Notes under the pieces: model-generated
What the model saw: the letters and a program-made list of their open reading frames with translations, nothing else
What the model was told of the DNA's origin: nothing
Databases searched by the model: none
Made by a program: the position numbers and the translations under genes
Shown here: piece by piece, positions 37,326-55,848 of the stretch
Layout of the letters: each line of letters begins with the position of its first letter
Numbering within the stretch: position 1 is the first letter of the stretch
Source: Paracoccaceae bacterium
Lineage (GTDB): Bacteria; Pseudomonadota; Alphaproteobacteria; Rhodobacterales; Rhodobacteraceae
Assembly: GCA_022843025.1 (NCBI GenBank)
Contig: JALHOL010000008.1
Span: 1-64,000, forward strand
Length of the DNA: 64,000 nucleotides
Direction of reading: 5' to 3'

Positions 37326-37534
37326 CCGAACAGGTTAAGGGCCCGGCGTCCTACTTCCCTTCCATCGAAAAGAAATACGGCCAGCCGATGCAACACTGGT
37401 TCGACCAGATCGCGCCCATGCTGGACCAGCCGCATATGCAGATCGTTTCCTTTCTTAAGGAAACCCACGCGATGGGCCACGGCCACGCCAATGCCATCGT
37501 CGCCCACCAACTCGCCAAGAATAAGGGTGCCTGA
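37322..37534 (+). CDS. Small DUF4287-type protein inside the fds operon
   Basis: 70 residues. GPASYFPSIEKKYGQPMQHWFDQI and THAMGHGHANAIVAHQL match DUF4287, a small helical domain. The gene overlaps fdsB by 4 bp and ends 1 bp before fdsA, so it belongs to the operon. It has no cysteines for a cluster. It might be an assembly helper or just a passenger; no function is known to me. Confidence 0.78.
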   Translation: MTEQVKGPASYFPSIEKKYGQPMQHWFDQIAPMLDQPHMQIVSFLKETHAMGHGHANAIVAHQLAKNKGA

Positions 37535-37535
37535 G

Positions 37536-40415
37536 ATGAAAGACTTCATCATTCCCGACCGCGATTTCGGCACCCCTGCCGCCAAATCCAAGACCATGGT
37601 CACCCTGACCATCGACGGGTTCGATATCACTGTTCCCGAAGGCACCTCGATCATGCGCGCCGCGGCGGAAATCGGGATCACCGTCCCGAAACTCTGCGCG
37701 ACCGACTCGCTTGATGCGTTCGGCTCTTGCCGCCTCTGCCTTGTGGAAATCGAAGGCCGCAACGGCACCCCGGCCTCTTGCACCACCCCCGTGGCACCCG
37801 GCATCAAGGTCCACACCCAGAACGCCAAGCTGAAGCAACTTCGCCGTGGCGTGATGGAGCTTTATATCTCGGACCACCCGCTGGATTGCCTGACCTGCTC
37901 CGCCAATGGCGATTGCGAGTTGCAGGATATGGCCGGCGCCGTCGGCCTGCGCGACGTGCGGTATGAGGCTGTGGAAACCCACTTCAAGGCCAAGAACAAC
38001 TCCGGCGAAGCCAACCCGCAATGGATGCCGAAGGACGACTCCAACCCCTATTTCACCTATGACCCGGCGAAATGCATCGTCTGCTCGCGCTGCGTCCGCG
38101 CCTGCGAAGAGGTGCAAGGCACCTTCGCGCTGACGATCGAAGGCCGTGGTTTCGATAGCCGCGTGTCCTTTGGCGCCAAGACCGACACCGCCCTGACGTC
38201 TGACTGCGTGTCCTGCGGCGCCTGCGTGCAGGCCTGCCCGACCGCCACGCTTCAGGAAAAGTCGATCATCGAGATCGGCACCCCCGAACGCTCTGTCATC
38301 ACCACCTGCGCCTATTGCGGCGTGGGCTGTTCGTTCAAGGCCGAAATGCGTGGCGACGAACTGGTCCGCATGACCCCCTACAAGCATGGCAAGGCCAACC
38401 GTGGGCATTCCTGCGTCAAGGGTCGCTTCGCTTATGGCTATGCCAGCCACAAGGACCGCATCCTGTCGCCCATGATCCGCGACAGCATCAACGACCCGTG
38501 GCAAGAAGTGTCATGGGCCGAGGCGATGGAATTCACCGCCAACCGCATGAAGGGCATCATCGCCAAGCATGGCCGCCAGTCGGTTGGCGTGATCACCTCC
38601 AGCCGCTGCACGAATGAGGAAGCCTACCTCGTGCAGAAGCTCACCCGTGCGGTGTTCATGAACAACAACACCGATACCTGCGCCCGTGTCTGCCATTCGC
38701 CCACCGGATACGGCCTTGGCCAGACCTTCGGCACCAGCGCCGGCACGCAGGATTTTGACTCGGTCGAACACACCGATGTCGTCATCCTGATCGGCGCAAA
38801 CCCGACCGACGGTCACCCCGTCTTTGCCTCGCGCCTGAAGAAACGCCTGCGCGCCGGGGCCAAGCTGATCGTGGTCGACCCGCGCCGGATTGATCTGGTG
38901 GACAACTCCGCCCACATCCGGGCCGCCCACCATTTGGCCCTGACGCCGGGCACCAACGTGGCCGTCGTCACCGCCATCGCCCATACCATCGTGACCGAGG
39001 GCCTGTTTGACGAAGACTTCATCCGCACCCGCTGTGATTGGGATGAATTCCAGGACTATGCCGAATTCGTATCCGACCCCCGCCACTCGCCCGAAGCGAC
39101 TCAACTTCTGACAGGGGTCAAGGCAGATGAACTGCGCGCCGCCGCCCGCCTTTATGCCAAGGGCGGCAACGGGGCGATCTATTACGGCCTGGGGGTGACC
39201 GAACATTCGCAGGGCTCGACCACCGTTATCGGCATCGCCAACCTTGCCATGCTGACCGGCAATATCGGCCGCCCCGGCGTGGGCGTGAACCCGCTGCGCG
39301 GCCAGAACAATGTGCAGGGTTCCTGTGACATGGGGTCATTCCCCCACGAACTGCCCGGCTACCGCCATGTGAAGAACGACTCCGTGCGTGAGGTGTTCGA
39401 ATCCATCTGGGGCGTGAAGATCGACAACGAACCCGGCCTGCGCATCCCCAACATGCTGGATGCGGCGGTCGAGGGCACCTTCAAGGGCCTCTACTGCCAA
39501 GGCGAAGACATCCTGCAATCCGACCCCGACACCAAACACGTCGCCGCAGGACTGGCGGCGATGGAATGCGTGATCGTCCATGACCTGTTCCTGAACGAGA
39601 CGGCGAACTACGCCCATGTGTTCTTCCCCGGTTCGTCCTTCCTGGAAAAGGACGGCACCTTCACCAATGCTGAACGCCGCATCAACCGCGTGCGCAAGGT
39701 GATGGCCCCGAAACAAGGCTATGCCGATTGGGAAGTGACGCAGATGTTCGCGCAGGCGATGGGGGCCGATTGGCACTATACCCACCCGTCGCAGATCATG
39801 GATGAAATCGCCATGCTGACGCCGTCCTTTGCCGGGGTCAGCTATGAAAAGCTGGAAACCATGGGGTCTATCCAGTGGCCCTGCAACGAAAAGGCGCCGG
39901 AAGGCACGCCCCTGATGCACATTGATGGGTTCGTGCGCGGCAAGGGTAAGTTCATCCGCACGGAATACGTGGCCACCGATGAAAAGACCGGCCCGCGCTT
40001 CCCCTTGCTGCTCACCACGGGCCGCATCCTTTCGCAATACAACGTGGGGGCGCAAACGCGGCGCACAGAAAACGTCGTCTGGCACGAGGAAGACCTGCTG
40101 GAGATTCACCCCCATGACGCGGAACTGCGCGGCGTGCGCGATGGGCAATATGTGAAACTGGCCTCGCGGTCGGGGGAAACCTCGCTAAAGGCCAAGATCA
40201 CCGATCGCGTGTCGCCGGGTGTGGTCTACACGACATTCCACCACCCCACGACACAGGCCAACGTCATCACCACCGATTTCTCGGACTGGGCCACCAACTG
40301 CCCGGAATACAAGGTGACGGCCGTGCAGGTCAGCCCGTCCAACGGGCCGACCGAATGGCAGGAAGACTATGCCGAACAGGCGGCCCAATCCCGCCGCATT
40401 CTGGCGGCCGAATGA
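37536..40415 (+). CDS. fdsA: NAD-dependent formate dehydrogenase alpha subunit (bis-MGD)
   Basis: 959 residues from ATG 37536. N-terminal NuoG-like part: [2Fe-2S] cysteines (CATDSLDAFGSCRLC), His-Cys cluster (HPLDCLTCSANGDC), two 4Fe-4S ferredoxin motifs (CIVCSRCVRAC and CVSCGACVQAC), then the Mo domain with its own cluster CAYCGVGC. The Mo ligand is Cys386, followed by His387 (CARVCHSPTGYG), the same numbers as R. capsulatus FdsA; not selenocysteine. C-terminal MGD-binding domain near the end. It oxidises formate. Confidence 0.97.
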   Translation: MKDFIIPDRDFGTPAAKSKTMVTLTIDGFDITVPEGTSIMRAAAEIGITVPKLCATDSLDAFGSCRLCLVEIEGRNGTPASCTTPVAPGIKVHTQNAKLKQLRRGVMELYISDHPLDCLTCSANGDCELQDMAGAVGLRDVRYEAVETHFKAKNNSGEANPQWMPKDDSNPYFTYDPAKCIVCSRCVRACEEVQGTFALTIEGRGFDSRVSFGAKTDTALTSDCVSCGACVQACPTATLQEKSIIEIGTPERSVITTCAYCGVGCSFKAEMRGDELVRMTPYKHGKANRGHSCVKGRFAYGYASHKDRILSPMIRDSINDPWQEVSWAEAMEFTANRMKGIIAKHGRQSVGVITSSRCTNEEAYLVQKLTRAVFMNNNTDTCARVCHSPTGYGLGQTFGTSAGTQDFDSVEHTDVVILIGANPTDGHPVFASRLKKRLRAGAKLIVVDPRRIDLVDNSAHIRAAHHLALTPGTNVAVVTAIAHTIVTEGLFDEDFIRTRCDWDEFQDYAEFVSDPRHSPEATQLLTGVKADELRAAARLYAKGGNGAIYYGLGVTEHSQGSTTVIGIANLAMLTGNIGRPGVGVNPLRGQNNVQGSCDMGSFPHELPGYRHVKNDSVREVFESIWGVKIDNEPGLRIPNMLDAAVEGTFKGLYCQGEDILQSDPDTKHVAAGLAAMECVIVHDLFLNETANYAHVFFPGSSFLEKDGTFTNAERRINRVRKVMAPKQGYADWEVTQMFAQAMGADWHYTHPSQIMDEIAMLTPSFAGVSYEKLETMGSIQWPCNEKAPEGTPLMHIDGFVRGKGKFIRTEYVATDEKTGPRFPLLLTTGRILSQYNVGAQTRRTENVVWHEEDLLEIHPHDAELRGVRDGQYVKLASRSGETSLKAKITDRVSPGVVYTTFHHPTTQANVITTDFSDWATNCPEYKVTAVQVSPSNGPTEWQEDYAEQAAQSRRILAAE

Positions 40416-41215
40416 TGGACACCGCCCGCCGCCTTCCCCGCCTGAGCTTCGGCTCCGGCGGCATCGAGCAGGGGTCGCGACCCCTGCCCGAAGAGGTGGC
40501 GGTCGCCCTGTCCTTCAACGGATCGACGCAGGCGGTAATGATGGCGACGCCGGATGATCTGGTGGATTTCGCCTATGGCTTTGCCCTGACCGAAGGCATC
40601 GCCACCCCGGACCAGATCGAAAGCGTCGAGGTGCAGCCCGCAGGGCAAGGGATCGACGTGCAGGTCTGGCTGACCGGCGATGCAGAGGCGCGGCTTGCCG
40701 CGCGCCGCCGCACCATGGCAGGGCCGGTCGGCTGTGGCCTGTGCGGGATCGACAGCATCGAGCAGGCCATGCGCCCTGTGGCGCAGATTGCGCCATCCGC
40801 CTTTCGCATGACGCCCGCACAGGTGATGCAGGCGGTGGCGGCCCTGACAGGCCGCCAACCGCTGCACGATGTCACCCGCGCCGCCCATTGCGCTGCATTC
40901 TGGACCGATGATGCTCTGGTTGCCGCGCGTGAAGATGTGGGCCGTCACAACGCGCTGGACAAACTGACCGGCCACCTGATCCGCGCCGGCCACGCCCAAG
41001 GGGCGGTGGTGCTGACCAGCCGCGTTTCCATCGACATGGTGCAAAAGGTCTGCGCGCTGGGCGCGCCCGTCCTGATCGCCGTATCCGCCCCCACTGCCCA
41101 TGCTGTCGATCTGGCGGAAGAGGCGGGGCTGACCCTGATCGCCCTTGCCCGGCCCGACCGGTTCGAGGTTTTCACCCATTCCGACCGACTGATGGAGATT
41201 GCCCATGTCCGCTGA
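40412..41215 (+). CDS. fdhD: Formate dehydrogenase accessory sulfurtransferase FdhD
   Basis: 267 residues from ATG 40412, overlapping the fdsA stop by 4 bp; ATG 40415 follows directly. Family markers are FAYGFALTEGI, the cysteine loop GPVGCGLCGIDSI (carrying the sulfur-transfer cysteines), REDVGRHNALDKL and TSRVSIDMVQK. FdhD (called FdsC in Rhodobacter) passes sulfur to the molybdenum cofactor and protects it before insertion into FdsA. Overlaps the fdsD start. Confidence 0.95.
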   Translation: MMDTARRLPRLSFGSGGIEQGSRPLPEEVAVALSFNGSTQAVMMATPDDLVDFAYGFALTEGIATPDQIESVEVQPAGQGIDVQVWLTGDAEARLAARRRTMAGPVGCGLCGIDSIEQAMRPVAQIAPSAFRMTPAQVMQAVAALTGRQPLHDVTRAAHCAAFWTDDALVAAREDVGRHNALDKLTGHLIRAGHAQGAVVLTSRVSIDMVQKVCALGAPVLIAVSAPTAHAVDLAEEAGLTLIALARPDRFEVFTHSDRLMEIAHVR

Positions 41216-41441
41216 CCCGCATGAAAAGCTGATCTACATGGCGAACCAGATTTCCAAGTTCTTTGAATCCAAACCCCATGCCGAAGGCGTGGCCGGGATT
41301 GCCACCCATATCAACGATTTCTGGGAACCCCGGATGCGGCGGCATCTGTTTGAGGTCGTCGATGCAGGCGGCACGGGCCTGCGCCCGCTGGTGCTAGAGG
41401 CGACGCAGACCATCCGCCGCCCCACCCCTGAACACGCCTGA
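41205..41441 (+). CDS. fdsD: Formate dehydrogenase delta subunit
   Basis: 78 residues from ATG 41205, with GGAG eight bases upstream; a TTG six bases earlier is less likely. HEKLIYMANQISKFFESKP and IATHINDFWEPRMRRHL are the conserved blocks of FdsD. It is a small subunit needed for cofactor insertion or stability of the FdsABG complex. It overlaps fdhD by 11 bp and is the last gene of the operon, followed by a hairpin 10 bp after the stop. Confidence 0.9.
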   Translation: MSADPHEKLIYMANQISKFFESKPHAEGVAGIATHINDFWEPRMRRHLFEVVDAGGTGLRPLVLEATQTIRRPTPEHA

Positions 41442-41450
41442 TCCTGCGGA

Positions 41451-41546
41451 GCGGCGTGCCGCCGCATTCCTTTGTGTCGTCGGCGCCTTCGCGCCTCCTC
41501 CGTGCAAAGGGGCGTGCCGCCCCCTCTGTCCGCGCGTGCCGCGCGG
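41451..41546. repeat. Run of GC hairpins with identical TGC loops
   Basis: Three hairpins share the loop TGC and the closing CG pair but have different, fully paired stems: GCGGCG/CGCCGC (41451-41465), GGGGCG/CGCCCC (41509-41523) and CCGCGCG/CGCGCGG (41530-41546). A fourth, GGCGC-CTTC-GCGCC, lies at 41482-41495. The first sits 10 bp after fdsD and may help end the fds transcript, though no T run follows. Confidence 0.7.
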
Positions 41547-41597
41547 CCATTCACCCCCGTGCTGGGTATTTGGGCCAAGATGAAGCGGCGTCCAAGG

Positions 41598-41683
41598 CGT
41601 TAACCTTACCGCGCGCTTAACCCGTCGTCCGCTGCGTGCATACGCTTTGCTGCACAGCCGTCTGCACCGCGCGCTGCACGGTT
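41598..41683 (-). repeat. GTGCAG-iteron element, copy A
   Basis: Read on the minus strand: GTGCAG at 41679-41674, 41667-41662 and 41655-41650, exactly 12 bp apart, then GTATGC in register (41643-41638) inside hairpin GCGT-ATGC-ACGC (41645-41634). Then TTAA (41620-41617), 7 bases, GTAA (41609-41606) and TTAA (41603-41600). It begins about 28 bp after the rfbA stop. Copy B at 55758-55848 has the same order and spacing. Confidence 0.85.
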
Positions 41684-41706
41684 GGAAAACAGGTTTCGGC
41701 GATGGT

Positions 41707-42582
41707 TTATTCCGACGCGATGCCCAGCAGATAGCGGCCGTAATCGTTCTTTCGGAACGTCTCCGCCCGCTTGAGCAGAGCGTCCCGTGTGATGAAACCC
41801 GCCCGCCATGCGATCTCATCCGGGCTGCCAACCTGCAATCCTTGCCGGTCGGTCAGGGTCCGTACAAAGTTGCCCGCATCCAGCAATGACCCATGGGTCC
41901 CGGTATCCAGCCAGGCATAGCCACGGCCCATCAACTCGACCTGCAAGCTACCTTCGGCGCGATATTTTTCAAGCAGATCAACGATTTCCAATTCGCCCCG
42001 GGGTGAAGGGCGGATCGTTTCGGCAAGCTCCGGCGCGCGCCCGTCAAGATAGTAGAGCCCGGTGACGGCATAGTTCGATGGCGGACGTTCCGGTTTTTCG
42101 ATGATCGCGCGTACCTGACCGGCGCTGTCGAAATCCACCACGCCATAGCGTTCGGGATCCGCCACGCGATAGCCAAAGACCGTGCCGCCCGTGGCCTGCG
42201 CATCGGCGGTGGCCAGTGCCTGCGGCAGGCCATGGCCGAAAAAGATGTTGTCCCCCAAGACCATGGCCGAAGGCGCACCATCCAGAAACGCCCGCGCCAG
42301 AAGGTAGGCCTGCGCCAACCCATCGGGCGAGGGCTGGACGATGTAGGTGAACGTTAGCCCCCACTGGCTGCCATCGCCCATAAGCCGTTGAAATTGCGCC
42401 TGATCTTCTGGGGTGGTGATGATCGCAATATCGCGGATTCCGCCCAGCATCAGCACCGACAGCGGGTAATAGATCATCGGCTTGTCATAGATCGGCAGCA
42501 GTTGCTTAGACACACCCATGGTGATGGGCCACAGCCGCGTGCCGGACCCGCCGGCAAGGAGAATGCCTTTGCGTTTCGTCAT
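41707..42582 (-). CDS. rfbA: Glucose-1-phosphate thymidylyltransferase
   Basis: 291 residues from ATG 42582, overlapping rfbD by 4 bp. Nucleotidyltransferase signature KGILLAGGSGTRLWPITMGVSKQLLPIYDKPMIYYPLS at the N-terminus, then IVQPSPDGLAQAYLLA, VLGDNIFFGHGL and GYAWLDTGTHGSLLDAGNFV. It makes dTDP-glucose, the first step of dTDP-L-rhamnose. Here it is last in the rfbCBDA run. The GTGCAG element begins just downstream of its stop. Confidence 0.96.
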   Translation of the reverse strand: MTKRKGILLAGGSGTRLWPITMGVSKQLLPIYDKPMIYYPLSVLMLGGIRDIAIITTPEDQAQFQRLMGDGSQWGLTFTYIVQPSPDGLAQAYLLARAFLDGAPSAMVLGDNIFFGHGLPQALATADAQATGGTVFGYRVADPERYGVVDFDSAGQVRAIIEKPERPPSNYAVTGLYYLDGRAPELAETIRPSPRGELEIVDLLEKYRAEGSLQVELMGRGYAWLDTGTHGSLLDAGNFVRTLTDRQGLQVGSPDEIAWRAGFITRDALLKRAETFRKNDYGRYLLGIASE

Positions 42583-43433
42583 GCGCGCAACTCCTTGAGG
42601 ATATCGGATAGGCCCTGCCGCCAATCAGGGCGGGGGATGCCATAGCTTTGGGTCAGGCTGGAACAGTCAAGCCGCGAATTCATCGGCCGCGCCGCTGGGG
42701 TTGGATAGGCCGAAGACGGAATGTCGTGGATCGTGCAGGGCAAACCGGCCCCGGCCATGATGGCGCGGGCGAAATCGGCCCAACTGGTGTCGGGGCTGCC
42801 CGCAAAGTGATGTGTCCCGCCATCTGCCCCGTCGCGAAGCGCGCTTGCCGCCAGAATCAACGCATCGGCAATGGCGGCAGCGGGGGTTGGGCCACCGATT
42901 TGATCGGCAACGACGTTCAGGCTTTCCCGTTCGGCCCCCAAGCGCAGCATCGTTTTCACGAAGTTCTGTCCGTGGGCCGAAACGACCCAACTGGTCCGCA
43001 GGATAACATGCCGCGCGCCGCTGGCGCGGATGGCCACTTCACCGGCCAGTTTGGACCGGCCATAGGCATTGACCGGCGCTGTGGGATGATCCGGGGTAAA
43101 GGGCAGGGTGCCCCTGCCATCAAAGACATAGTCGGTGGAGATGTGCAGAAGCGGAATGCCTTGGTCCGCACAGGCCCGGGCCATGGCAGCGGGGCTGTGG
43201 CCATTCACCACCGTCGCCGCCGCCTCTTCGGTTTCCGCTTTGTCGACTGCCGTCCACGCGGCGGCGTTTATCACCGCGTCGGCAGGATGTGCGGCAATGG
43301 CGGCAGCACAGGCGGCGGGATCAGACAGATCGGCCCGGTCACGGCCCAGAAATGTGGCCTGAACCGCCGCAGGCATGCGGCGGGCCAGTTCACGGGCCAC
43401 CTGTCCTGTCTGGCCGAAAACCAGCAGCTTCAC
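42579..43433 (-). CDS. rfbD: dTDP-4-dehydrorhamnose reductase
   Basis: 284 residues from a GTG start at 43433 that overlaps the rfbB stop by 4 bp; an ATG far upstream would run into rfbB. NAD(P)-binding [17 protein letters not shown], then STDYVFDG, catalytic YGRSKLAGE and [17 protein letters not shown]. It performs the final reduction to dTDP-L-rhamnose. The chain of 4-bp overlaps through rfbC-B-D-A indicates translational coupling. Confidence 0.95.
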
Positions 43434-44470
43434 GCCTTGACCCCCAGCCGTTGCCCCACGCCCTGCCGCTCTTGCAGCGGACGCCACCACGAGTCGTTGT
43501 CCAGATACCAGCGCACCGTGCGGCGCAGCCCTTCCTCGAGTGTGACCGATGGGCGCCATCCCAGCTCATCACGGATGCGTTTGGGATCAATGGCATAGCG
43601 CAGGTCATGGCCGGGGCGATCGGTCACAAAGGTGATCAGCCGGTCATGCGGCGCGCCTTCGGGGCGCATCTCATCCAGCAGGGAACAGATGGTGCGGACG
43701 ATGTCGATATTCATCGCCTCATTCTCGCCGCCGATATTGTAGCTGCGCCCGACAGGGCCTTTTTCGAGCACGGTCAGCAGGGCATCGGCGTGGTCTTCGA
43801 CGTAAAGCCAGTCCCGCACATTTTCACCCTTGCCATAGACGGGAATGGGCTTTCCCGCCAAGGCGTTCAGGATGACCACAGGGATCAGCTTTTCGGGAAA
43901 GTGGAAGGGCCCGTAATTGTTGGAACAATTCGTCAGGACCACCGGCAGCCCATAGGTTTCATGCCAGGCGCGGACCAGGTGATCAGACGCGGCCTTTGAT
44001 GCCGAATAGGGGCTGCGCGGATCATAGGGCGTGTCTTCGGTGAACTTGCCCGTCGGGCCAAGCGATCCGAACACCTCATCGGTCGAGATGTGGTGAAAGC
44101 GGAAATCGGCGGGCTTGCCCTTGGCCTGCCACCAGGCGCGGACGGCTTCCAGAAGGGTGAAGGTGCCGGTCACGTTGGTTTCGATGAAATCGGCAGGCCC
44201 GTCGATGGACCGGTCGACATGGCTTTCGGCGGCCAAGTGCATCACGGCATCCGGGTCATGCGCCGCAAGGATCCGGTCCAGCGCGGCACGGTCGCGGATA
44301 TCTGCCTTTTCAAAGGCATAGCCGGGCGCATTGCCGACAGAGGCCACGTTGTCAAGACAGGCGGCGTAGGTCAGCGCGTCAAGGTTCACGATGGAATGGC
44401 CTCGTGCAATGGCCAAGCGCACCACAGCAGAGCCGATGAAGCCTGCCCCCCCGGTCACCAGAATTTTCAT
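43430..44470 (-). CDS. rfbB: dTDP-glucose 4,6-dehydratase
   Basis: 346 residues, extended [15 protein letters not shown] at residues 7-18, [27 protein letters not shown], the catalytic [15 protein letters not shown] and [17 protein letters not shown] are all standard for RfbB. It converts dTDP-glucose to the 4-keto-6-deoxy sugar. Second gene of the operon, overlapping rfbC by 4 bp. Confidence 0.97.
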
Positions 44471-45027
44471 GCGGCACCTTCAAAGACAAAAGGGGATGTC
44501 CAGTCGCCAAAGGCCGGCGCGACGGCGTCCTTGGCCGACAGCACCGGATCGTCCGTCAGGCCCCAGTCGATACCGACGCTGTCCCACCGCACCCCACCGT
44601 CGCAATCGGGGGCATAAAGATCAGTACATTTATACTGCACCTCGGTATCCGGCATCAGCGTCGCAAAGCCATGCAGAAACCCCTTCGGGACAAACAATTG
44701 CTTGCCATTCTCGGCAGTCAGATCAACGGCAACGTAGTGGCCATAGGTGGGCGATCCTACCCGCGCATCGACCGCCACATCGCGGATGGCACCGCGCGAG
44801 CAGCGCACCAATTTGTCCTGAGCGCGCGGCGGCGATTGGTAGTGAAGGCCGCGCAAAGTGCCGGGCTGTGCCGAAAACGAATGGTTGTCCTGCACGAAGG
44901 CAAGGTCCAGCCCCGCAGCGGCCATGCGCGCGGCATTCCATGTTTCGCTGAACCATCCCCGCGCATCGCCGAAACGGGCGGGGGTCAGGATCAGAACGCC
45001 GGGAAGATCAGTGGGTTCAATGTTCAT
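44467..45027 (-). CDS. rfbC: dTDP-4-dehydrorhamnose 3,5-epimerase
   Basis: 186 residues, cupin-type epimerase. Markers are [32 protein letters not shown] (the catalytic His), [16 protein letters not shown] and GFLHGFATL, with the catalytic Tyr in VQYKCTDLY. First of the four rhamnose genes and 39 bp downstream of the SGNH hydrolase gene in the same direction, so the promoter may lie upstream of that gene. Confidence 0.96.
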
Positions 45028-45066
45028 GGGGATGCGGTCGCATGTCTTCGGGGCAGGATTTGGGCA

Positions 45067-45705
45067 TCACATCAGCGCGGATATGGCATCTGCCACGGCG
45101 CGGCCCAGCTTGGCATGGGCGGCTTCGTCGAAATGCACGCCGTCTATGGGGCTGACGGCGATGACTTGGCCTGCATCCAGAAAACCCACGCCGCGCGACC
45201 GGGCAAGGTTGGCATAGAGCGGGGCAAGCGCCTGTGAACGTGCCGCGCCACCCCAAAATTCCGTCTTGATCGGCCCGGTTTCCACCACCGGTGGCGGGCA
45301 GATCAGCAGGATTCGAAACCCGCCATGCCGCGCCTGATACTCCAGCGACATCGCCACATCCAACAGGCCCGCGATCCCCGCCACGACCTGTTCCGGCTGT
45401 GTCGCGAAGCGTGTCTTCACGTCATTCGTGCCAAGCATCAGTGTCATCACGTCAATCGGCCCGTGCGATTGCAGCGCCATCCGCAGGGCCGGGCGGCCAT
45501 TCATGATATCGCCCATGACCGGGTCGTCATATTGCGCGGTCCGCCCCGGCAGGCCTTCCTCGGCCAGTTCCCATCCCCCGCCCAAGGCAGCATGGGTCAC
45601 GGTTGGCCAACGCACGCCTGCGCCAAAGCGGCGATATTCGGCACGGTCGATGATGGGCGGGGTGCCATGGGTGTTGCTGTCGCCAAAGGTCAGCAGGACG
45701 GGCAT
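45067..45705 (-). CDS. SGNH/GDSL family hydrolase
   Basis: 212 residues, no signal peptide. The four SGNH blocks are present: catalytic Ser in LLTFGDSNTHG, Gly in EEGLPGRTAQYDD, Asn in LMLGTNDVK and the Asp-x2-His pair in IDGVHFDEAAHAKL. Members are esterases or O-deacetylases. The position just upstream of rfbCBDA suggests a role linked to a rhamnose-containing polysaccharide, but a cytoplasmic esterase of other use is equally possible. Confidence 0.87.
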   Translation of the reverse strand: MPVLLTFGDSNTHGTPPIIDRAEYRRFGAGVRWPTVTHAALGGGWELAEEGLPGRTAQYDDPVMGDIMNGRPALRMALQSHGPIDVMTLMLGTNDVKTRFATQPEQVVAGIAGLLDVAMSLEYQARHGGFRILLICPPPVVETGPIKTEFWGGAARSQALAPLYANLARSRGVGFLDAGQVIAVSPIDGVHFDEAAHAKLGRAVADAISALM

Positions 45706-54500: not shown

Positions 54501-54616
54501 AGCTGGGGATCGGCTATAACAAGGCGGCACGGCTGGTTGAGCAGATGGAAGAACAGCACGTGGTCACCCGCGCGAACCATGTGGGCAAGCGCGAGATTCT
54601 GGTGCCTGAGGCCTGA
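51557..54616 (+). CDS. ftsK: DNA translocase FtsK
   Basis: 1019 residues from ATG 51557, with GAGGGAC upstream; a GTG at 51542 overlaps the previous stop and is less likely. Four membrane helices (residues about 25-195), a long Pro/Ala/Arg linker, then the motor: Walker [16 protein letters not shown], Walker [14 protein letters not shown], and [33 protein letters not shown]. The C-terminal gamma winged helix ([25 protein letters not shown]) reads KOPS. It pumps chromosomes at the septum. Terminator follows. Confidence 0.97.
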
Positions 54617-54641
54617 AATCCCTAACGATCGGTTAAGGCGA

Positions 54642-54672
54642 GGCCGTCCTTCGGGGCGGCCTTGTGCTTTTT
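54642..54672 (+). terminator. Rho-independent terminator after ftsK
   Basis: Stem GGCCGTCC (54642-54649) with GGGCGGCC (54654-54661), one T-G wobble, a stable TTCG loop, then TTGTGC and five T. It begins 26 bp after the ftsK stop. Confidence 0.85.
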
Positions 54673-54716
54673 ACGGCCTGTTGCTAGGTGCGGCGCTTGC
54701 GGAAAAGGGCTGTGCG

Positions 54717-55757
54717 ATGAAGGTCTTGCGGGCGATCAACGGCGTGGGGGAACTGGTGCAGGCGGGGCTTGTTGCGCCGAATGCCGCGCCTGCGCTAGAG
54801 CCTGTCGAAGCTGCCTTTCGCATCCGCGTGACCGGGGCGATGCAGGAGGCGATCAGCGCGCCGGATGACCCTGTGGCGCGGCAGTTTCTGCCATTGGTTA
54901 ACGAATTGATAATCCGCGACGAGGAATTGGCCGACCCCATTGGGGATGAGGCCCATGCGCCCGTGAAAGGATTAACGCATCGTTACCCGGACCGTGTGAT
55001 TTTCCATGTGACCAAGACCTGTGAGGTTTATTGCCGTTTCTGTTTCCGGCGCGAGGCGGTGGGGGATGAGGGTTCGCTGCCGGAAGCGGATGTTATGGCC
55101 GCGCTTGATTACATCGCCGTTAATCCCGCGATCCGTGAGGTGATCCTGACCGGTGGCGATCCGCTGGTGCTTTCTGCGCGCCGGATCAAGGGGTTGATCG
55201 AACGGCTGTCGGCCATTGCCCATGTCGATGTGGTGCGGATTCACACACGGATACCTGTTGTCGCGCCGGAAAAGGTGACGGATGAACTGGTTGCGGCGCT
55301 GCGGGGGCGGGTGGCTGTCTGGGTGGTGGTGCATACCAACCATGCGCAAGAGATCACCGCGCGGGCCGAGGTCGCGTTGGCGCGGCTGGTGGATGCGGGA
55401 ATTCCCCTGCTTTCCCAATCGGTTCTACTGCGCGGAGTGAATGACAGCGTGGCGGCGTTGGAGGGGTTGTTCCGGAAATTGATTGGATGCCGGGTGAAGC
55501 CCTATTACCTGCATCATTGCGATCTGGCGAAGGGGACGTCGCATTTTCGCACCACGATTGCCGAGGGGCAGGCCCTGATGGCGGGGTTGCGCGGGCGGGT
55601 AAGCGGGACGCTTTTGCCGACCTATGTGCTTGATATACCGGGTGGTTTTGGCAAGGCACCGCTGGTGCGCGACCATGCCGAACCGCTGGGCGGCGGGCAA
55701 TGGCGCATCACCGATTGGCGCGGTGGAGTGCATCTTTACCAAGATCCGGAGCGGTAA
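54717..55757 (+). CDS. KamA/EpmB-like radical SAM aminomutase
   Basis: 346 residues from ATG 54717. Radical SAM cluster Cys102-x3-Cys106-x2-Cys109 in VTKTCEVYCRFCFRRE. Then VILTGGDPLVLS, RIHTRIPVV, the CDLAKGTSHFR stretch and the PLP-lysine loop IPGGFGKAP. The length is that of EpmB (YjeK), which makes (R)-beta-lysine for EF-P, and is shorter than fermentative KamA. No efp or epmA is visible here. The GTGCAG element follows the stop directly. Confidence 0.85.
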   Translation: MKVLRAINGVGELVQAGLVAPNAAPALEPVEAAFRIRVTGAMQEAISAPDDPVARQFLPLVNELIIRDEELADPIGDEAHAPVKGLTHRYPDRVIFHVTKTCEVYCRFCFRREAVGDEGSLPEADVMAALDYIAVNPAIREVILTGGDPLVLSARRIKGLIERLSAIAHVDVVRIHTRIPVVAPEKVTDELVAALRGRVAVWVVVHTNHAQEITARAEVALARLVDAGIPLLSQSVLLRGVNDSVAALEGLFRKLIGCRVKPYYLHHCDLAKGTSHFRTTIAEGQALMAGLRGRVSGTLLPTYVLDIPGGFGKAPLVRDHAEPLGGGQWRITDWRGGVHLYQDPER

Positions 55758-55848
55758 AACCCCGTGCAGCAGCCGGTGCAGCACGCTGTGCAGACAGGCG
55801 TATGCACGCAGCGGACCGTGGTTTAAGCGCGCGTTAAGGTTAACGGGG
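55758..55848 (+). repeat. GTGCAG-iteron element, copy B
   Basis: GTGCAG at 55764-55769, 55776-55781 and 55788-55793 (12-bp steps), GTATGC in register at 55800-55805 inside hairpin GCGT-ATGC-ACGC (55798-55809), then TTAA at 55823-55826, seven bases, TTAA at 55834-55837 and TTAAC at 55840-55844. It starts at the first base after the radical SAM gene's stop. Outside the hexamers between iterons and one short patch it is nearly identical to copy A. Confidence 0.85.
55823..55837 (+). promoter_or_regulatory. CtrA-like binding site TTAA-N7-TTAA
   Basis: TTAA-GCGCGCG-TTAA exactly fits the full CtrA consensus of alphaproteobacteria, with a further TTAAC two bases later. It lies 145 bp upstream of the small membrane protein gene at 55982. 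Copy A has TTAA-N7-GTAA at the matching place. Confidence 0.45.

Follow-up and report, generated by a model that had tools for sequence, protein, structure and literature searches.

Dispersed GTGCAG iteron arrays occupy shared sites with species-typical spacers in related Rhodobacteraceae genomes

Results

Two iteron arrays lie just past the stop codons of genes in a 64,000-nt window of Paracoccaceae bacterium DNA. The window covers the first part of contig 8 (JALHOL010000008.1, positions 1 to 64,000; assembly GCA_022843025.1) of a genome of 3.9 Mb in 22 contigs, here G000. Positions 37491–45705 hold the end of a formate dehydrogenase region (a 974-aa frame, FdhD and FdsD) and then, on the opposite strand, an apparent dTDP-sugar cluster, and copy 1 sits at the convergent boundary of the two. 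There, fdsD (41199–41441, plus strand) converges with an rfbA-type nucleotidyl transferase gene (41707–42624, minus strand), both assigned by Pfam, and a terminator-like stem lies on the fdsD strand at 41451–41465 (one found, 0.3 expected). The gene upstream of copy 2, also assigned by Pfam, encodes a radical-SAM, lysine-2,3-aminomutase-like protein (54606–55757, plus strand). The original prediction placed the start of each copy just after these stops, and the distances to the first iterons are indeed short, at 27 bp for rfbA and 6 bp for the radical-SAM gene. Elsewhere in the window, the sole Rfam match above the gathering score is the SorX small RNA (RF02784; 30674–30750, minus strand, 78 bits).

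Both copies read GTGCAG-N6-GTGCAG-N6-GTGCAG-N6-GTATGCACGC-AGCG, followed by a TTAA-rich block. In copy 1 (minus strand), pattern matching places the three iterons, at a 12-bp period, at 41650–41679 with spacers CGCGCG and ACGGCT; a third spacer, CAAAGC (41644–41649), leads to the terminal unit GTATGCACGC (41634–41643), which is the inverse of GTGCATAC, and the TTAA-rich 3′ module TTAAGCGCGCGGTAAGGTTAACG occupies 41598–41620. Copy 2 (plus strand) has its iterons, likewise located by pattern matching and at a 12-bp period, at 55764–55793 (spacers CAGCCG and CACGCT), then spacer ACAGGC (55794–55799), the terminal unit GTATGCACGC (55800–55809) and the TTAA-rich 3′ module TTAAGCGCGCGTTAAGGTTAACG (55823–55845). 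The two matching copies first described are thus real, running from 41598 to 41679 on the minus strand and from 55764 to 55845 on the plus strand. Allowing up to three mismatches, GTGCAG-N6-GTGCAG-N6-GTGCAG matches the window exactly twice (shuffled sequences gave a mean of 0.12 matches, and 1/100 reached two). The proposed TTAA-N7-(T/G)TAA block is present in both window copies but does not typify the family, in which CGTTAAGGTTAACG and CGTTAACCATG are the commoner forms and some copies have neither.

The window copies belong to a family with at least 83 places in the genome. The element had been taken for a two-copy one, and a whole-genome pattern search overturns this. Among 46 listed matches, GTATGCAC (the reverse complement of GTGCATAC) or a one-letter variant of it closes 40 copies (36 exact and 4 with one mismatch); six two-mismatch rows were dropped, one of them overlapping a place that was in the count. 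At least 43 further copies end in GTGCATAC itself, counting exact matches, as the one-mismatch rows listed were nearly all inner iterons. Additional decayed copies may exist. Genome-wide, the three-iteron pattern with up to two mismatches gave 135 overlapping matches, compared with 1 for the reversed pattern, and reversed-pattern controls across these searches gave 0 to 4. A second genome of the same species, the single complete chromosome G434, gave 83 matches to a slightly different pattern. The expectation that a genome search would recover many copies with variable N6 is therefore borne out, and at least 83 copies together with near-empty reversed-pattern controls rule out chance or a two-copy duplication remnant.

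The usual element consists of three (two to four) GTGCAG-like hexamers that point one way and are spaced at 12 bp. GTGCATAC or its inverse GTATGCAC closes the array, and a GTTAA module often lies 3′ of this closing unit. In an alignment of 84 anchors the hexamers are near-invariant in the last two iterons, and the spacers vary within limits: favorites here are CGCGTG and CGCCCG before iteron 2, ATGGCG and ACGGCT before iteron 3, and ACGGGC, ACGGCT or CAAAGT before the end unit. In the scanned 864 kb of the genome, all five occurrences of CGTTAAGGTTAACG fall within elements, of which the sequence is hence a part. A sub-class, seen in class alignments made without the loci of six anchors, shows a further conserved stretch, TTGCGG-CGCTG-TTAAT, some 60 bp upstream, with GTTAACC or GTTAAGGTTAACG on the downstream side. 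On G000 contig 7, two elements follow each other 116 bp apart (306367 and 306483), and the pair is also found in G434.

The end units suggest a palindromic ancestor. At locus L190 of Rhodobacter ruber the end is GTGCATACGCGCGTATGCAC, a perfect 20-bp palindrome, and locus L016 of the present genome has the same type of palindrome with three changes, both end units standing in a row (L016 is counted twice among the 84 anchors in the alignment, gene-context and folding analyses). The GCGT-ATGC-ACGC hairpin of the original prediction is better understood as one half of a DNA palindrome, GTGCATACGC.GCGTATGCAC, which is complete in L190. Judged from the aligned letters, the two end classes would each keep one half of the 20-bp palindrome. 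Three sites have one end class here and the other in R. ruber.

Elements favor convergent gene boundaries. With gene context taken from a home-made gene caller, 79 of the 84 anchors are intergenic, two more have no gene on one side and three fall inside called reading frames. The 79 comprise 35 between converging genes, 34 within tandem pairs and 10 between diverging genes; among the gaps of at least 60 bp in 864 kb sampled from the same genome, 48/381 are convergent and 112/381 divergent. An orientation shared with the upstream gene, as had been proposed from the two window copies, survives as a tendency (55/79 intergenic anchors) but is no rule, since in tandem pairs 20 elements point with the genes and 14 against. 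Other copies lie antisense within a sucB-MAPEG-lpd gene string or inside coding tails. The neighboring genes have no common theme: 143 neighboring proteins matched 226 Pfam families, the commonest of them in five proteins.

Two of the three anchors inside called frames are in frame, one in the C-terminal tail of a peptidyl-tRNA hydrolase and one in that of a methyltransferase (both named by reading their sequences); the third rests in a dubious gene call. These coding-tail arrays (L105 and L108, G000 contig 9 at 25.8 and 170.1 kb) have relatives in G001, G014 and G017, the hydrolase array being found in four species and the methyltransferase array in three. They encode V-Q-x-x repeats, since the 12-bp period, a multiple of 3, preserves the reading frame. 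All their V codons are GTG, but the search pattern forces most of these, so codon choice carries no information here.

Strict matches fall largely in part of one genus, in which the motif itself changes. The strict pattern GTGCAG-N6-GTGCATAC occurs in 9/19 genus genomes, with counts of 43, 42, 35, 34, 29, 27, 9, 4 and 1 and ten zeros, and in 7 of 394 family genomes, two within the genus and five elsewhere with a single place each. A scan of named genomes found copies in R. ruber, R. kunshanensis, Rhodobacter sp. BC.021, Tabrizicola sp. TH137 and one uncultured member of the Rhodobacteraceae, the named cultured strains being R. ruber CCP-1 and R. kunshanensis HX-7-19; its sole match outside Rhodobacteraceae labels, L200 under the label Lautropia, is a simple tandem repeat. 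A scan of viral contigs gave three stretches, all reading as coding or tandem repeats, and a phage origin was rejected. We found no description of such an element in our searches of the open-access literature.

Genomes without strict matches can carry a changed form. At the MAPEG-lpd site, compared without outgroups G018 and G021, G006 reads GTGCCG, GTGCCG, GTGCAG, GTACATAC; G003, G007, G011 and G013 have ATGCAC units at an 11-bp period; and G009, G015 and G016 have no array. Genus-wide, the 11-bp ATGCAC form occurs in those same 4/19 genomes, at 15 places with up to one mismatch. In a tree of MAPEG and lpd from 15 species, built without G005 and G020, species with no array fall outside, array-bearing species form one clade (support 95/98), and the 11-bp species are a clade nested within it (100/99).

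Array sites are shared between species, and the letters between iterons have been rewritten. Among the copies of five related species that pattern searches retrieved, a subset of all copies in those genomes, 45/52 lie at sites that have an element here (alignment of at least 300 bp), and 45/45 of these point in the same direction, with both strands searched. Neither window copy is among the sites matched by these 52 copies. Sites bearing an element in this genome also account for 5/15 of the 11-bp arrays of the four other species, again with matching direction. At shared sites, mismatch to this genome ranges over 1–11% in iterons, 11–27% in flanks and 22–64% in N6 spacers, from a reference set that includes one of the two window copies. 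By species, the fractions for iterons, flanks and spacers are.11,.18–.23 and.64 in G002;.01,.17–.27 and.60 in R. ruber (G005);.01,.15–.25 and.42 in G014;.05,.14–.23 and.33 in G017; and.02,.11–.16 and.22 in G001. The iteron values are somewhat too low because the strict search pattern favors intact iterons, although the outermost iteron is mostly not forced by it. The original argument that conserved blocks with changed spacers suggest recognition gains support here, as iterons change less than the flanks and spacers more.

Spacers are typical of the species, with TGTTTT, CCTTTT and CAAAGT in G002, GAACGG, GAACGC and ACGGGC in R. ruber, and CGCGTG, ATGGCG and ACGGCT here. In R. ruber, spacers at the same site differ from ours by.603 and spacers at random sites by.642, with 48/500 random draws as close, so that memory of the site is nearly gone. 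In G014, 78/500 draws were as close. Site memory is kept in G017 and G001 (0/500 draws as close in each) and in G002 (9/500). Taken together, shared sites, conserved iterons and species-typical spacers indicate that many sites are old and that their cores were kept as the intervening letters were rewritten.

Dispersed, mostly extragenic copies with species-typical sequences, a preference for convergent gaps and a number that varies across the genus (43 down to zero by the strict pattern, 19 genomes) would also be expected of a REP-like family of miniature mobile elements that has no function, is kept uniform by copying or gene conversion and persists through inertia at neutral 3′ sites. We consider this rather unlikely. 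REPs are described as short, dispersed, extragenic sequences repeated within one genome (PMC3116915), and REP/REPIN sequences are presented as persistent populations (PMC8049555). The arrays resemble them in size, dispersal and repetition within a genome, with at least 83 places and 3/84 anchors in called reading frames. They differ in being iteron arrays instead of palindromic units, in the sharing of occupied sites between species (45/52) with iterons nearly fixed, more so than their flanks, and in the similar numbers from both genomes of the species (83 and 83, by slightly different patterns). No hairpin signal such as an imperfect palindrome would give rises above shuffles in the 84 anchors under RNA fold parameters. 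No Y1_Tnp (PF01797) transposase of the RAYT kind scored above the cut-off in any of the 19 genus genomes, some of them incomplete drafts, with one sub-threshold match in G008, and identity with a REP/RAYT system was rejected on this ground.

The nearest layout that we found stands before genes of DUF6538-type integrases. A loose pattern of four GTGC units at 12 bp matched 47/248 family genomes (genus included), mostly in what appear by eye to be tandem or coding repeats, and five loci examined for context led to the integrase arrays. At seven loci an array of hexamers with a 12-bp period separates tRNA-Asn sequence from the beginning of an integrase-like gene: L325, L339, L342, L343 and L345 from other genera of the family, and L353 and L354 on prophage-type contigs. 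Arrays were located at 1501–1546 in L325, 1501–1545 in L342, near 1500 in L339 and upstream of 1501 in L353 and L354. Their hexamers are GTGCAC, GTGCCC or GGGCAC, and they represent three types, since L342, L343, L345, L353 and L354 are near-copies of one. DUF6538 passed the cut-off in two loci, L325 and L353, and narrowly missed it in L342; the proteins of L339, L343, L345 and L354 are probable DUF6538-type relatives on sequence grounds. The L353 protein has a weak Phage_integrase match, shows HxxR and a C-terminal Y on reading its sequence, and has no sequence relative in the PDB. Relatives of the L342 protein were absent from plasmids and phages and present at two viral loci, and the L325 and L339 proteins had none in viral scans.

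The hexamer-N6 arrays at these genes are presumed integrase arm-type sites, and they share with the dispersed arrays GTGC (or complement) hexamers, a 12-bp period, variable N6 spacers and three to five units. In L339, four GGGCAC units at the 12-bp period are followed by an inverted GTGCCC, comparable to the inverted closing unit of our elements, and the hexamer differs between integrase types, as it does between array-bearing species. The elements could thus be domesticated or relict att DNA of DUF6538-type tyrosine recombinases, spread in an ancestor and perhaps still bound, an origin that we regard as unlikely. An integrase array occurs once per mobile element, beside an integrase and a tRNA, whereas ours number about 80 per chromosome, stand by ordinary genes and often carry a TTAA module. 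The window copies lie between ordinary genes with no att core or integrase there as far as tested, so they do not qualify as arm sites themselves. No homologue of the L325 or L342 protein appeared in the roughly 27% of the window's genome that was searched, no integrase family is among the 25 most frequent of the 226 Pfam families matched by the 143 neighboring proteins, and a GTGC core with a 12-bp period could be convergence.

Array direction follows base composition along the chromosome. For 71/83 copies, and for 47/51 where skew is strong, the orientation matches the GC skew measured in the closest sampled stretch. GC skew does not track gene strand (rho 0.12, P = 0.43, 43 stretches) and was therefore read as replication strand. 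In G434 the elements change sign between 2.644 and 2.668 Mb, within the stretch where KOPS polarity also switches, and 30/32 copies between 2.655 and 4.15 Mb are on the minus strand. These patterns raised the possibility of a polar chromosome signal for segregation, replication or repair, read along the replication fork like KOPS or Chi. The KOPS motif GGGNAGGG, confirmed for alphaproteobacteria according to PMC2443382, is similarly biased along replichores, but it is 8 bp long and denser, and the arrays oppose it where it disagrees with GC skew. Overall, elements agree with KOPS 56 to 26; where KOPS and skew disagree, they side with skew 19 to 4. In G434 from 4.15 to 0.35 Mb, where two stretches were sampled for KOPS, 9/10 elements run against it, which suggests that the current direction is not being enforced; with KOPS taken as the mark of present replication direction, orientation does not follow it. 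Moreover, any G-rich hexamer is biased here (the G-rich strand carries 83% of plain GTGGTG and 69% of plain GTGCAG), and the spacing of copies is only mildly more even than chance would give (gap CV 0.79, an evenness matched by 1.7% of random sets). A fork-read signal is thus improbable, and we take array direction as historical and partly compositional. In the same G434 segment and in G000 contigs C5, C6 and C10, GC skew opposes KOPS polarity in the sampled stretches, as expected of inversions in which KOPS recovered before base composition.

Copies begin shortly past stop codons and the upstream gene is often codirectional (55/79), as a transcribed 3′ UTR, terminator or small RNA might be, but we consider such an RNA element highly improbable given that the 86-nt elements fold no better than dinucleotide shuffles on either strand (84 anchors, 40 shuffles each; mean z −0.19 to −0.44), that neither window copy matches Rfam in the window scan or contains a terminator-like site, and that tandem-pair elements point both ways and one copy is antisense within the sucB-MAPEG-lpd string. 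The original prediction had left the recognizing agent as a protein or an RNA. The RNA half is disfavored by the lack of a fold signal, by the lack of an Rfam match at the window copies and by the antisense and coding copies; the protein half remains plausible from the sequence pattern.

Discussion

The iteron arrays described here form a real and numerous family that keeps its positions and its cores, has species-typical spacers and prefers convergent gene ends. Our tentatively preferred explanation, which we hold as a possibility rather than a firm conclusion, is that these are DNA-binding arrays, conserved in position, that co-evolve with one putative sequence-specific protein. Such a protein would bind at the end unit, itself presumably descended from the 20-bp palindrome, and would polymerise head-to-tail along the iterons with one protomer per turn of the helix. 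Drift in its specificity would then lead the sites to change together. A bound array might serve as a boundary or roadblock between converging transcription units, a step with less support. The arrays next to DUF6538-type integrase genes share this layout, which makes an arm-site-binding domain of that type one candidate binder.

The geometry of the arrays is compatible with head-to-tail protein filaments of the winged-helix type on DNA. TGCA-cored hexamers recur about once per helical turn, every 12 bp, or every 11 bp in the sister clade, which is the arrangement expected of filament sites built from direct repeats roughly one turn apart. BldC is described as forming head-to-tail filaments with one DNA turn between protomers, and RdfS as forming helical filaments (both PMC11963761); units of 11–12 bp would likewise suit one protomer per turn. 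BldC and RdfS differ in acting at few promoters or att sites, and BldC uses 9-bp repeats where the arrays have 12 bp.

Several observations weigh against parts of this co-evolution reading. Concerted spacer change could be the product of gene conversion or copying, and site memory persists in G017, G001 and G002. Enrichment between convergent genes could be mere promoter avoidance, and a roadblock would be odd at the three anchors that fall within called frames, of which one is dubious. A more far-reaching version is that the roughly 80 arrays form a chromosome-wide set of binding sites, fixed in position across the genus, and that their code (hexamer, period of 12 or 11 bp, spacers) is rewritten in concert in different species under a rapidly evolving protein that organises or insulates the chromosome. 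We think this version rather unlikely. Centromere repeats and PRDM9 sites turn over in eukaryotes, and the rewriting of the array code may, by analogy, be likened to their concerted turnover.

As a rule, repeats dispersed in bacterial genomes are mobile and specific to one species, and sets of binding sites usually keep their consensus; in these arrays many sites stay while the code changes. If the change is driven by a protein, the arrays would offer a natural series (GTGCAG at 12 bp, GTGCCG at 12 bp, GAACGG spacers, ATGCAC at 11 bp) for the co-change of a protein and its sites. If it is driven by copying, they would show short dispersed elements being rewritten in place in the absence of a RAYT. 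Both readings are testable in named cultured strains, R. ruber CCP-1 and R. kunshanensis HX-7-19.
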